The position numbers were made by a program, and so were the translations under genes. A stretch of 64,000 nucleotides of DNA. Source: Elusimicrobiota bacterium. Lineage in GTDB: Bacteria; Elusimicrobiota; Elusimicrobia; Elusimicrobiales; UBA9959. Every line of letters begins with the position of its first letter. Within the stretch, counting starts at the first letter, position 1. This document shows, piece after piece, positions 4,224 through 10,096 of this stretch. The notes beneath the pieces were generated by a model. The model ran no database searches. It was not told where the DNA came from and saw only the letters and a list, made by a program, of their open reading frames with translations. Where the stretch lies: the NCBI GenBank assembly GCA_016234365.1, contig JACRER010000032.1, positions 1-64,000 of the forward strand, given 5' to 3'.

Positions 4224-5614
4224 AGGACCTTACCGAGGGCCACGAGGGACGCCTGATCTGGGATTTTACCCTGCCGATGCTGGCGGGCAACGTGCTGCAG
4301 CAGTCCTATAACGTAGTGGACAGCATCATAGTCGGCCGCGCCATCGGCAAGAGCGCGCTGGCCGCCGTCGGGGCCAGCTTCCCTATACTCTTCTTGCTGA
4401 TCTCGCTCATCATCGGCGCTACGATGGGTTTCTCCATTCTCATCTCGCAGTTCTTCGGGGCGAAGGACATGGCCCGCGTTCGCAGGACGATAGACACCTC
4501 GTACATCTTCCTGTTCGCGGCTTCGCTGCTGATGACGGCCGCCGGGCTGCTTTTTTCCGAGAGCATCCTGCGGCTGCTGAATACCCCGGCGGAGATCCTG
4601 CCGCAGGCCCTGACCTTCCTGCATATCACCTTCGGCGGGCTTGTCTTCCTGTTCGGCTACGGCTCCGTCAGCGCTATCCTGCGCGGCCTCGGTGATTCCA
4701 AAACGCCGCTCTATATCCTGGTCTGTTCCACTTTGCTGAACGCAGGTCTGGCCGCGTTCTTCGTGATCGGCCTGGGCTGGGGCATAGCCGGCTCGGCGTG
4801 GGCAACGCTGCTGGCGCAGGGGCTTTCGTTCGTGGGAGCCGCCTTCTACCTGAACCGGACGCACCCTGTGCTGAAGTTCCGGCTGCGCGGGCTGGAGTTC
4901 GATCGCGCCATATTCAGAAAGGCGCTCGCCATCGGCCTGCCGTCCGGAGTGCAGCAGATGCTGGCGGCCGGCGGTATGATGGTGCTGACCCGGCTGGTAA
5001 ACGGCTTCGGCACCGACGCGATGGCCGGTTACACGGCCGCCGGGCGCGTGGACACCTTCGCCGTGATGCCGGCGATGAGCCTGTCGGCGGCCATCTCCAC
5101 TTTCGTCGGGCAGAACATCGGCGCCGGGCATATGGAACGGGTCCGCAACGGCCTGAAGGCGGCGCTGCTGATCTCGGCCGCCACCTCGCTGCTGACCACG
5201 CTGGCAGTGATTGTGTTCGGCTGGCACCTGATAGCCATGTTCAATCCCGACCCCGCGGTGGTCGCGGTGGGCGCGCGCTACCTGCTGATCGCCGGCGGCT
5301 TCTATATCGTCTTCTCCAGCATGTTCGTGGTGAACGGCGCGCTGCGCGGCGCCGGAGACACCTTCGTGCCGATGCTGGTAACGGTGCTGGCGCTCTGGGT
5401 CATCCGGGTGCCGGTCTCGACGGTGCTCGCCGGCCGCATAGGCCTGGACGGCATCTGGTGGGGGGCGCCCGTGGCCTGGTGCGCAGGCCTGGCTTTCTCT
5501 GCGGGCTATTTCGCAACCGGGCGCTGGGAGCGCCTGGCCGCGGCCCGGCCGGCTCCCGCGCCGGAACCGCCTCCGGAGGAAGAAGAAGCGGAGTGGAACG
5601 TCTCTAAATTCTAG
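4220..5614 (+). CDS. MATE-family multidrug/sodium antiporter
   Basis: The 464-residue protein has about twelve hydrophobic segments and the MATE N-terminal signature region (LPMLAGNVLQQSYNVVDSI, then GRAIGKSALAAVG). The paired-half motifs ILRGLGDSKTPL and ALRGAGDTFVPM mark the internal duplication. It probably exports cationic compounds using a Na+ or H+ gradient. The ATG at 4220 overlaps the stop of the phosphatase gene; the frame is open further upstream, but only as an antisense-like reading of that gene. The C-terminus is Pro/Glu-rich and cytoplasmic. Confidence 0.88.
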   Translation: MKDLTEGHEGRLIWDFTLPMLAGNVLQQSYNVVDSIIVGRAIGKSALAAVGASFPILFLLISLIIGATMGFSILISQFFGAKDMARVRRTIDTSYIFLFAASLLMTAAGLLFSESILRLLNTPAEILPQALTFLHITFGGLVFLFGYGSVSAILRGLGDSKTPLYILVCSTLLNAGLAAFFVIGLGWGIAGSAWATLLAQGLSFVGAAFYLNRTHPVLKFRLRGLEFDRAIFRKALAIGLPSGVQQMLAAGGMMVLTRLVNGFGTDAMAGYTAAGRVDTFAVMPAMSLSAAISTFVGQNIGAGHMERVRNGLKAALLISAATSLLTTLAVIVFGWHLIAMFNPDPAVVAVGARYLLIAGGFYIVFSSMFVVNGALRGAGDTFVPMLVTVLALWVIRVPVSTVLAGRIGLDGIWWGAPVAWCAGLAFSAGYFATGRWERLAAARPAPAPEPPPEEEEAEWNVSKF

Positions 5615-5622
5615 GAGTCCTA

Positions 5623-5982
5623 ATGGGCGACAACGACAGACTGGTCTATTCTACCGGGCCCGACGGGACCGTGAAGTGTCCCAGTTGCGGACGTACGCCT
5701 TGCGAATGCTCCGAAGGTCTGGCCGGGGAACTCCGCAAGCGGACCCAGACCGAGCCGGTGCGCGTGCAGTTCCGCCGGACCGGCAAGGGCAGCGGACTTA
5801 CGCTCATAGAGAAACTGCCCATGCACCCCGCCGGCAAGGAAGAGCTGCTGAGTAAGTTCAAGAAGAGGCTCGGTGTGGGCGGCACGCTGAAAGACGGCAT
5901 CCTGGAACTGCAGGGCGACCGCAGGGCTTTTGTGAAAACAGAGCTGGAAGCCGCCGGCTACAAGGTCCGGCTTATCGGCTGA
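5623..5982 (+). CDS. yciH: SUI1/eIF1-like translation factor (YciH family)
   Basis: The 119-residue protein has a short Cys-containing N-terminus (CPSCGRTPCEC, a possible small zinc knuckle at residues 20-30) followed by the SUI1 fold: TLIEKLPMHPAGKEELLSKF, LGVGGTLKDG, ILELQGDRR. Bacterial YciH is related to eIF1 and affects initiation-codon discrimination in vitro. An AGGAG site precedes the ATG by a normal distance. It lies nine bases after the MATE gene and converges with the Hint/Tim44 gene, whose last codon is only three bases away. Confidence 0.88.
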   Translation: MGDNDRLVYSTGPDGTVKCPSCGRTPCECSEGLAGELRKRTQTEPVRVQFRRTGKGSGLTLIEKLPMHPAGKEELLSKFKKRLGVGGTLKDGILELQGDRRAFVKTELEAAGYKVRLIG

Positions 5983-5985
5983 AGT

Positions 5986-6288
5986 TCAGCCTTTCCAATA
6001 CCATTCTATCTGCACCGGGGTCGGCGCGGCGTCGGCCTGGCAGGCGTCGCCGCCCTCCTGGTTAATCCTTGGCAGGATATCCTTTAACAGCCAGTGAGCG
6101 TTAGTTCCGCGGCCAAAAACCCAATACTCCGTGAACGGTTCGGGGCCGGCGTCCTTGTGGAGCTGTTTGCCCTCGTGCGTCAGCGAGCGCCTTGCGCTGG
6201 CGTTGATGCGGGCGGTGAATTCGTCGGGGCCGGACTTGGAGGTGAGCACTATGTCGGCCTTCATTGTGTAAAGGTCCCCGAAGTCGAA
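5986..6288 (-). pseudogene. In-frame continuation of the Tim44-like domain after a TAG codon
   Basis: Immediately after the TAG (6289-6291) that ends the Hint/Tim44 frame, the same frame stays open for 100 codons to a TGA at 5986. The encoded sequence continues the second Tim44-like domain: the strand VLTSKS, then FTEYWVFGRGTNAHWLLKDI, which matches the first copy's FQEFWTFRLFNGRWVPARI. An ATG at 6264 is present but has no good ribosome site and would start in mid-domain. The simplest reading is a nonsense mutation or sequencing error; stop-codon readthrough is the alternative. Confidence 0.6.
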
Positions 6289-7701
6289 CTAGTAGCATTT
6301 CGCCGTCCTCTCCGAGATGAGCGACTTGAGTTTGTGAAGCGTTTCAGGGAAGAGCGCGTCGGCCTGCAGCAGGCCGGCGTCGCCTTTTTCCCAGGCGGCG
6401 TAGACGTTGAGGAAAGCCAGCGTGGCGGCTATTTCCATGCGCTGCCGGTCCCAGGGATCGCCGGAGGAATCGTACGAGGCGGGCTGTTCAGGCCGTGCGG
6501 CGGCCGCCGCGGCGGCGACCCCGGCGGCAATGCCGACGGCGGCGATGACCGGGGAGGGGGCGCCCGGCTTTTCCGGGAGGTTCGGCGCGGTAAGGATATA
6601 ATCCTCGCTGGTCTGGTCTATGCGCGCAGGCACCCAGCGCCCGTTGAAGAGCCGGAAGGTCCAGAACTCCTGGAAGGTGTGCGGGAAGCGGCTGCCGCTT
6701 ACCAGCGTGCCCGAGCCCTCGTTAACGGTGTAGTCGCAGGCCGAGGCGGTGATAAGCACCGTGAAGGAGCGGTCCGCCTCTCCGGGTGTGTACCTGACAT
6801 GTACGAAATCCATGCCGCGTACGGATACGTTCTCCATACGGTTGATCACGCCTTTGGCCAGCATGGCGTCGGTCTTGTTGGTGTGGCTGGCGTAGAGTCC
6901 CGGGTCGATGCGGGACTGCAGCGGGCCGTAGTCGCGCGCTTCCCAGGCCGCCTGCATGTCCAGGAAAATGCCCTGCACCAGTTGGCGCAGCGTTTCCGGT
7001 TCTACCGCCGGATCCGAAGCGGCCAGCGCGGAGAGTATCTCTTTTGTCTGCTGCGCCCTGCCCGCGGTCTGCGTCCCGGAAATGATCTTTTCCGGAGGCG
7101 GGCTGGAGATCATCATATCCTTAAGCTTGGAGATCAGCACGAACGGGAGCATCAGCAGGATAAAGATCAGGTCGAACTTGCTGCGGCCGCGGCTATGGTA
7201 GCCGCCGCCGTAGCCGCCCATGTTGTGCACCACGAACCCGTTGGCGATGAAGGTGTGCGGGGGGGCGACCTCGAGATTGTAGACGTCGGTTTCGCGGCCG
7301 GGCTTCAGTTTTTTTATTTTCGTCCAGGCCAGTTTGCCGTCGCGCAGCATGCCCACTTCGTCGCCGGGTTCAAGGTTCGCGGCTTCGGTAAAGCCGTCCC
7401 TGGTAAGGAAAGGGTGTTCGGGCGTGGTCACCACGCGCCCCAGCGGCGTGATAACGGTAAGCAGCCGGGCCTTTTTTTTGAAGAACTCTTTTACCGCCAC
7501 TTCCATTACGCGCCCGTCAGCATAGGCCAGCACCAGGTCGCCGGGGCGTACCGCCTCTATGATCACGCCCCCCGCGGTGGTGGATACCAGCGTGCCGGCC
7601 GCGAAACAGCCTCCTCCTCCGCCTCCACCGCCGCCTCCGGCGCGCGGCCAGGCCGGCGCGCAGGGCGCGCAGAGGAGCAGGGCGGCCAGCAGGTACTTCA
7701 T
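6289..7701 (-). CDS. Hint (intein-like) domain fused to Tim44-like membrane protein, stopped by TAG
   Basis: The 470-residue frame has a signal peptide (1-20), ten consecutive Gly codons (22-31) and a Hint autoprocessing domain from Cys32 to His159-Asn160. The Hint domain shows CFAAGTLV, the TTPEHPF block with its Thr and His, and FVVHN at its end. Residue +1 is Met, not Cys, Ser or Thr, so ordinary splicing is not expected; cleavage like bacterial intein-like domains fits better. A membrane segment (about 176-194) and a Tim44-like domain (about 225-370) follow. A second Tim44-like domain begins near 418 and is cut by TAG at 6289. It lies five bases after the small membrane-protein gene. Confidence 0.75.
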   Translation of the reverse strand: MKYLLAALLLCAPCAPAWPRAGGGGGGGGGGCFAAGTLVSTTAGGVIIEAVRPGDLVLAYADGRVMEVAVKEFFKKKARLLTVITPLGRVVTTPEHPFLTRDGFTEAANLEPGDEVGMLRDGKLAWTKIKKLKPGRETDVYNLEVAPPHTFIANGFVVHNMGGYGGGYHSRGRSKFDLIFILLMLPFVLISKLKDMMISSPPPEKIISGTQTAGRAQQTKEILSALAASDPAVEPETLRQLVQGIFLDMQAAWEARDYGPLQSRIDPGLYASHTNKTDAMLAKGVINRMENVSVRGMDFVHVRYTPGEADRSFTVLITASACDYTVNEGSGTLVSGSRFPHTFQEFWTFRLFNGRWVPARIDQTSEDYILTAPNLPEKPGAPSPVIAAVGIAAGVAAAAAAARPEQPASYDSSGDPWDRQRMEIAATLAFLNVYAAWEKGDAGLLQADALFPETLHKLKSLISERTAKCY

Positions 7702-7706
7702 GGGAT

Positions 7707-7976
7707 TTACCGCAGGGCGGCCAGCATGGCGCCCAGCACGGCCGCCGCAATTATCAGGCTGACGCCCAGGATGGCGGCTGAAACTATGCGGCCGAAGTAG
7801 TCGGCCACCGCGCGGTTGCCGCGGACTATTTCCTTCCCCTCGTCTATGTTAGGGGTGATCTTGTCGAAGACGGCCGGGATGCGGGCGGAAATGCGGATGA
7901 GCAGTATGGCCCCTATGGCCGCTCCGGCCATGGCGAAGACCAGTGCCCAGCCGATATCTATCAAAGTTCCTATCAT
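7707..7976 (-). CDS. Small two-TM membrane protein, DUF350-like
   Basis: The 89-residue product starts at the ATG at 7976, which has a GGAGG site five bases upstream; an open frame reaching 8036 lacks such a site. It has hydrophobic segments at about 8-28 and 64-87, separated by a charged loop (DEGKEIVRGNRAVADYFGR). That loop and the GVSLIIAAAVLGAML helix resemble half of a DUF350 protein. It is transcribed just ahead of the Hint/Tim44 gene and is probably part of the same membrane system. Function is unknown. Confidence 0.7.
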   Translation of the reverse strand: MIGTLIDIGWALVFAMAGAAIGAILLIRISARIPAVFDKITPNIDEGKEIVRGNRAVADYFGRIVSAAILGVSLIIAAAVLGAMLAALR

Positions 7977-8086: not shown

Positions 8087-8275
8087 TCGGTTAGCACGAA
8101 TCCAGCAGGATTCCCGCGAGAGCGGGCGAGGGCCAAGCGCTATGCGCGACCGGCCCGAGAGTGCGTATGCCGCGCCAAAGGCGCACCCGCTATGCGGGGG
8201 GGGGGAGTTTCAGTTGAAACTTCCCGGCCCGTCAGTCCCCGGCAAATTTTACTGCTAATTCCCCGCGCAGCGGGC
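8087..8275 (+). other. Hairpin-rich leader or small RNA region before the ABC-F gene
   Basis: Five short perfect or near-perfect hairpins occur in 180 bases: 8099-8112 (loop AGCA), 8113-8126 (CCCGC-GAGA-GCGGG, a GNRA-type loop), 8172-8184 (GCGCC-AAA-GGCGC), 8203-8225 (GTTTC-AGTT-GAAAC core) and 8262-8274 (CCCGC-GCA-GCGGG). No coding frame is convincing here. It could be the untranslated leader of the ABC-F gene, a small RNA, or REP-like repeat debris. Confidence 0.35.
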
Positions 8276-8284
8276 CGTACATCT

Positions 8285-10096
<1,812 letters not shown>

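Follow-up and report, generated by a model that had tools for sequence, protein, structure and literature searches.

A bacterial intein-like Hint domain in the Gly-rich linker of a membrane Tim44 protein family of Elusimicrobia

A Tim44 gene and its partner between SUI1 and ABC-F genes

The window analyzed here is a stretch of 64,000 nucleotides from contig JACRER010000032.1 of an Elusimicrobiota bacterium (GCA_016234365.1). On its reverse strand, the open reading frame at 6289-7701 encodes 470 amino acids, in the order signal peptide, Gly run, Hint domain, Met161, membrane helix, and Tim44. A small partner gene lies directly upstream, and the locus has the following features.

7639..7701 (-): signal peptide, residues 1-21 (MKYLLAALLLCAPCAPAWPRA); read from the sequence, with a similar N-terminus in nearly all relatives
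7609..7638 (-): ten-Gly run, residues 22-31; read from the sequence
7222..7608 (-): Hint domain of the A-type bacterial intein-like (BIL) kind, spanning Cys32-Asn160, in which block B reads TPEH and the end VVHN; profiles, structure, and fold match
7219..7221 (-): +1 residue Met161 (ATG); codon comparison with relatives
7171..7221 (-): Gly/Ser/Arg-rich linker, residues 161-177; low confidence for most of the stretch in the model
7108..7170 (-): membrane helix, residues 178-198; AlphaFold model and hydropathy
6652..7041 (-): first Tim44 domain, residues 221-350; PF04280, E 3.9e-16
6292..6447 (-): N-terminal piece of a second Tim44 domain, residues 419-470; alignment with relatives and model
6289..6291 (-): TAG stop, in frame; all full-length relatives have an open frame at this site
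5986..6288 (-): remainder of the second Tim44 domain, in frame past the TAG and ending ...EWYWKG before a stop; dN/dS 0.18-0.34
7707..7976 (-): gene for the 89-aa partner, which has two membrane helices; lies 5 bases upstream of Tim44
5623..5982 (+): gene of the SUI1 family, bordering the cassette site on the left
8192..10096 (+): gene for an ABC-F-like ATPase, bordering the cassette site on the right

The signal peptide, the exactly ten Gly residues, Cys32, His159-Asn160, and Met161, all described in the initial annotation, can be read directly from the sequence. The membrane helix that it placed after the Hint is present in the AlphaFold model, and its Tim44 domain scored 59.9 bits against PF04280 (gathering score 29.6). 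Against the Tim44/TimA adaptor model NF033779, the score was 20.6, below the curated cut-off of 80. The protein shares a Tim44 domain with bacterial Tim44-domain proteins and this adaptor but differs in score, and full-length members of the family have two Tim44 domains.

The end of the gene at 6289 is not a natural one; the annotation had overlooked that this TAG lies in frame. Beyond it, the frame runs for about 100 codons to 5986 and completes the second Tim44 domain. Full-length relatives have both Tim44 stretches in one open frame with a sense codon at this site, and the window copy alone among them carries the TAG. The tail behind the stop showed no clear relaxation when its dN/dS was compared with close relatives, suggesting that the TAG is recent or an assembly error; judged from these comparisons, the window copy would be one or the other, truncated or misassembled. 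Amber read-through was rejected, as TAG normally terminates another gene of the window (the one ending at 5614) and relatives have a sense codon. With Met instead of the family Lys at +1 and a truncated second Tim44 domain, this is a derived or damaged allele, an odd and probably damaged family member and a poor example of the family.

Matches were found in 24 of the 61 genomes searched, and the named relatives are Elusimicrobia metagenome-assembled genomes. The genus-level layout is a Tim44 gene plus the 89-aa partner gene between the SUI1 and ABC-F genes, and an empty site, with SUI1 directly beside the ABC-F gene, occurs in four genomes (G004, G007, G010, and G016). Judged by gene order, the family forms a cassette between these two genes that Elusimicrobia can do without. 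The annotated small membrane partner proved to be real, conserved, and two-helical, but its DUF350-like label had no Pfam match (six orthologues, E up to 10). It was retained beside Tim44 copies for which flanking sequence was available and tracked Tim44, not the Hint, being present beside Hint-less Tim44 copies and missing beside stand-alone Hints. A DUF350 partnership was rejected on both grounds.

A Hint domain of the bacterial intein-like type

The Hint identity of residues 32-160 is far above chance. The profile search matched PF14890 (E 1.8e-9) and PF07591 PT-HINT (E 1.4e-8), both above the cut-off, and an AlphaFold model built with 20 sequences had pLDDT >90 across most of residues 32-160, with intein-like strands. 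When the modeled domain was searched with Foldseek, the top matches were inteins and BIL domains (NpuDnaB intein, E 1.9e-12; BIL domain 2lwy, E 3.4e-10). The initial annotation had recognized a Hint domain with Cys1 and a terminal His-Asn, and the comparison with known structures that it proposed came out Hint-like.

The likeness to BIL domains that it had also pointed out held up. By sequence, the closest solved chain was the C. thermocellum BIL domain 2lwy (E 1.3e-14, spanning 32-160), which has the same Cys1, TxxH, and HN end, no Cys/Ser/Thr at +1, no endonuclease, and a length of about 130 residues. Traits of A-type BILs are present: a Hint fold that has Cys1, TxxH in block B, and a His-Asn end; a +1 residue other than Cys/Ser/Thr (Met in the window, Lys in relatives); and a variable host insertion region, here a Gly-rich linker of differing length with high dN/dS around it. 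Unlike the C. thermocellum domain, the Elusimicrobia Hint occupies the linker of a Tim44 membrane protein, a host common to several genera, and its family has a near-invariant +1 Lys, direct tandems of up to three, and inactive stand-alone derivatives. Class 1 inteins share the Hint fold, Cys1, and HN, but the family Hint has no endonuclease, carries no Cys/Ser/Thr at +1 in the window copy or its Cys1-type relatives, and sits in a Gly-rich linker, not in a conserved functional motif. The domain is a real, well-conserved BIL-type Hint in an unusual architecture.

By Pfam, it belongs to the same sequence family as the pretoxin HINT (PF07591) of polymorphic toxins, from which it differs in sitting near the N-terminus, ahead of a membrane Tim44 part. 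A toxin-delivery HINT was rejected, as neither a toxin domain nor an immunity gene was found and PADLOC returned only a weak intein-like match; the neighbors are the partner, SUI1, and ABC-F genes, and a membrane helix and Tim44 follow downstream.

Other Hint proteins were seen during the searches. True inteins occur in related genomes in ribonucleotide reductase (L082, G012:C105) and the GTP cyclohydrolase I FolE (L024, G033:C63). Type IV pilin-like proteins with a GFTLVE N-terminus, from other Elusimicrobia families, carry a C-terminal Hint followed by 7-9 residues after HN, a Hedgehog-like layout (L068 93-1448(+), L076 1479-2690(+), and L077 1295-2539(+)). A 2049-aa adhesin-like repeat protein of the same genus has a Hint with HN-Lys in its C-terminal part (L081, G022:C100, ~4300-4750 of the locus), and three secreted proteins (L073, L075, and L078) have a complete Hint and, past HN, a partial Hint-like start (FVAGTKV...).

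Versions of the family

The commonest version has a single Cys1-Hint with Lys at +1, and the Gly run comprises 7-15 Gly in single-Hint relatives. Hint-less versions were found in G017 and, with a remodelled N-terminus, in G030. In the Tim44 tree, in which several forks are weakly supported, both nest among Hint-bearing copies, which suggests that the Hint-less state arose by loss. The Hint-less orthologue in G017 has an unbroken Gly-rich linker, and a paralogue (L030, SP-ARAG(11)-TM-Tim44) has the Gly run without a Hint; the Hint is therefore an insertion into the linker. By this comparison of sequences, the poly-Gly is part of the host protein and by itself no part of a cleavage device.

Three genomes (G140, G141, and G155) encode a direct triple tandem, RGGGG-[C..HN]-KG-[C..HN]-KGGG-[C..HN]-KG-TM-Tim44, and the G032 tandem comprises two complete Hints plus the end of another at the contig edge. 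In the Hint tree, clades spanning the genera have support for tandem domains one and two. Support for the grouping of the third is weaker, and this is the domain to which the single Hint from the window's genus comes closest. The AlphaFold model of the triple Hint was poor (pLDDT 59.8, four sequences) and was taken only as a hint of Hint-like strands. No comparable tandem Hint array was found in a plasmid search. Across single and tandem copies, Cys1 (wherever the contig extends to it), TxxH, and HN are retained together at dS 0.2-1.0, with Hint dN/dS of 0.08-0.47.

Two kinds of derived copies have lost Cys1. G005 and G015 have lost Lys+1, the block-B Thr, and the Gly run along with Cys1 but have kept HN. 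In G002, G011, and G031, the Hint is a free secreted protein with Gly in place of Cys1, ending precisely at HN-stop, and two of these three also lack the block-B His. Neither Tim44 nor the partner is present at these stand-alone sites. In G002, a 241-aa secreted protein (L022 789-1514(-)) replaces them beside the Hint, and G011 and G031 have frames resembling it. HN is the sole catalytic element kept in every family copy.

Proposed fate of the Hint domain after export

The reading we favor, with moderate confidence, is that an A-type BIL Hint in a native Gly-rich linker detaches itself, once exported, from the Tim44 part in the membrane. Reviews (PMC7765530, PMC5874633, PMC7664689), which cite Dassa 2004 and Aranko 2013, describe A-type BILs with an HN end and no +1 nucleophile as chiefly cleaving and sometimes splicing. 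From the residues and the model, we infer cleavage, topology, and product roles as follows. A single-helix Tim44-family membrane protein would be exported by Sec with the Hint in its Gly-rich linker; the signal peptide and one helix would put the Hint on the outer side of the membrane and the Tim44 domains on the inner side. Asn160, with His159, would then sever the Hint from the membrane part via Asn cyclization, and the Cys32 thioester would release a Gly stub, perhaps accompanied by some ligation. This would yield a free Hint plus a Tim44 protein whose outer N-terminus is short, as in the Hint-less homologue. The annotation had expected cleavage to release the exported N-terminal part or to free the membrane Tim44 part. 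Only the Gly stub would remain of the former after signal-peptide removal, whereas a free Hint and a membrane Tim44 protein would be the useful outcome.

The derived copies bear on this proposal in two ways. With Cys1 and the Gly run lost in G005 and G015, signal peptidase would set the N-terminus of the Hint while HN stays, and in the stand-alone form HN-stop gives the C-terminus that self-cleavage would yield. Both states give an end of the free Hint expected from self-cleavage, and this favors its release from Tim44. However, purifying selection acts on the Cys1-less and stand-alone Hints (dN/dS 0.04-0.26), and the fold may therefore serve a purpose that needs no cleavage; HN may persist for structure, as in the stand-alone form, where there is nothing to cut. 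The main rival, which we consider unlikely, is a domain outside the membrane that does not cleave and whose fold is kept for a structural or binding role. The purifying selection on the stand-alone secreted Hints without Cys1, two of three also without the block-B His, speaks for it, but the remaining copies, three deeply diverged tandem Hints among them, retain the full catalytic set.

Met at +1 is present as the annotation stated but is peculiar to the window copy, and a meaning for it was rejected on that ground; no Ser/Thr/Cys, which it had named, together with splicing in relatives, as contrary evidence, occurs at +1 in Cys1-type members. Lys occupies the site in 27 of 28 Cys1-type family Hints, a count in which the G020 Hint and the first Hint of G032 end at a contig edge before Cys1, leaving that residue unseen. 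Both AAG and AAA are in use, and close relatives have one or the other where the window has ATG. Among other Hints (17 of the phylum and 8 plasmid controls), Lys is found in 8 of 25 (Fisher 7e-7, computed ignoring relatedness). None of the five Cys1-less copies, which belong to two lineages of Cys1 loss, has it; from sequence comparison, this coupling suggests that the +1 residue matters while the thioester works. What is new here is the triple array and the loss of Lys+1 together with Cys1.

By analogy, the Cys1 thioester might transfer the stub, through its Gly end, to the amine on the side chain of Lys+1 (or of another Lys) and so form an isopeptide. The Lys pattern just described would fit, as would the residue preceding Cys1, always Gly in family copies, and there is a precedent in the Tetrahymena BIL2 domain, which forms isopeptide bonds with Lys, acting with a ubiquitin-like protein (PMC8616854). 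That BIL2 domain of BUBL (6y75, 6tmm) is likewise intein-like, with a documented Lys acceptor of the kind possible in Elusimicrobia, but it belongs to a eukaryotic polyubiquitin-like precursor whose BIL is flanked by ubiquitin-like domains (PMC8616854), whereas the Elusimicrobia tandem BILs stand back to back with 2-8 residues between them. With Met in the window copy, Lys+1 in some unrelated Hints, and a mere Gly stub of doubtful benefit as the transferred group, we regard such ligation as improbable. A broader version, to which we give little credence, is that one to three back-to-back BILs pass a poly-Gly end to the conserved adjacent Lys, in Lys-dependent ligation or multi-step self-excision in the envelope, the released or stand-alone Hint being a product in its own right.

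Least probable is genuine, traceless splicing by alpha-amine attack without a +1 side chain, which would restore the Gly linker. The statement that normal splicing is not possible was too strong, since BILs without a +1 nucleophile can splice, and the product of splicing would look like the Hint-less homologue; BILs yield mainly cleaved products, however (PMC7765530, PMC5874633, PMC7664689), and with only 2-8 residues separating tandem Hints, splicing would conserve very little.

In the open-licence literature, to which the search was confined, we found no paper on Tim44 joined to a Hint domain or on inteins in Elusimicrobia. With active-looking single, triple tandem, Cys1-less, stand-alone inactive, and Hint-less copies as well as empty sites, this family offers a natural comparison set in which a role for self-cleavage is directly testable.
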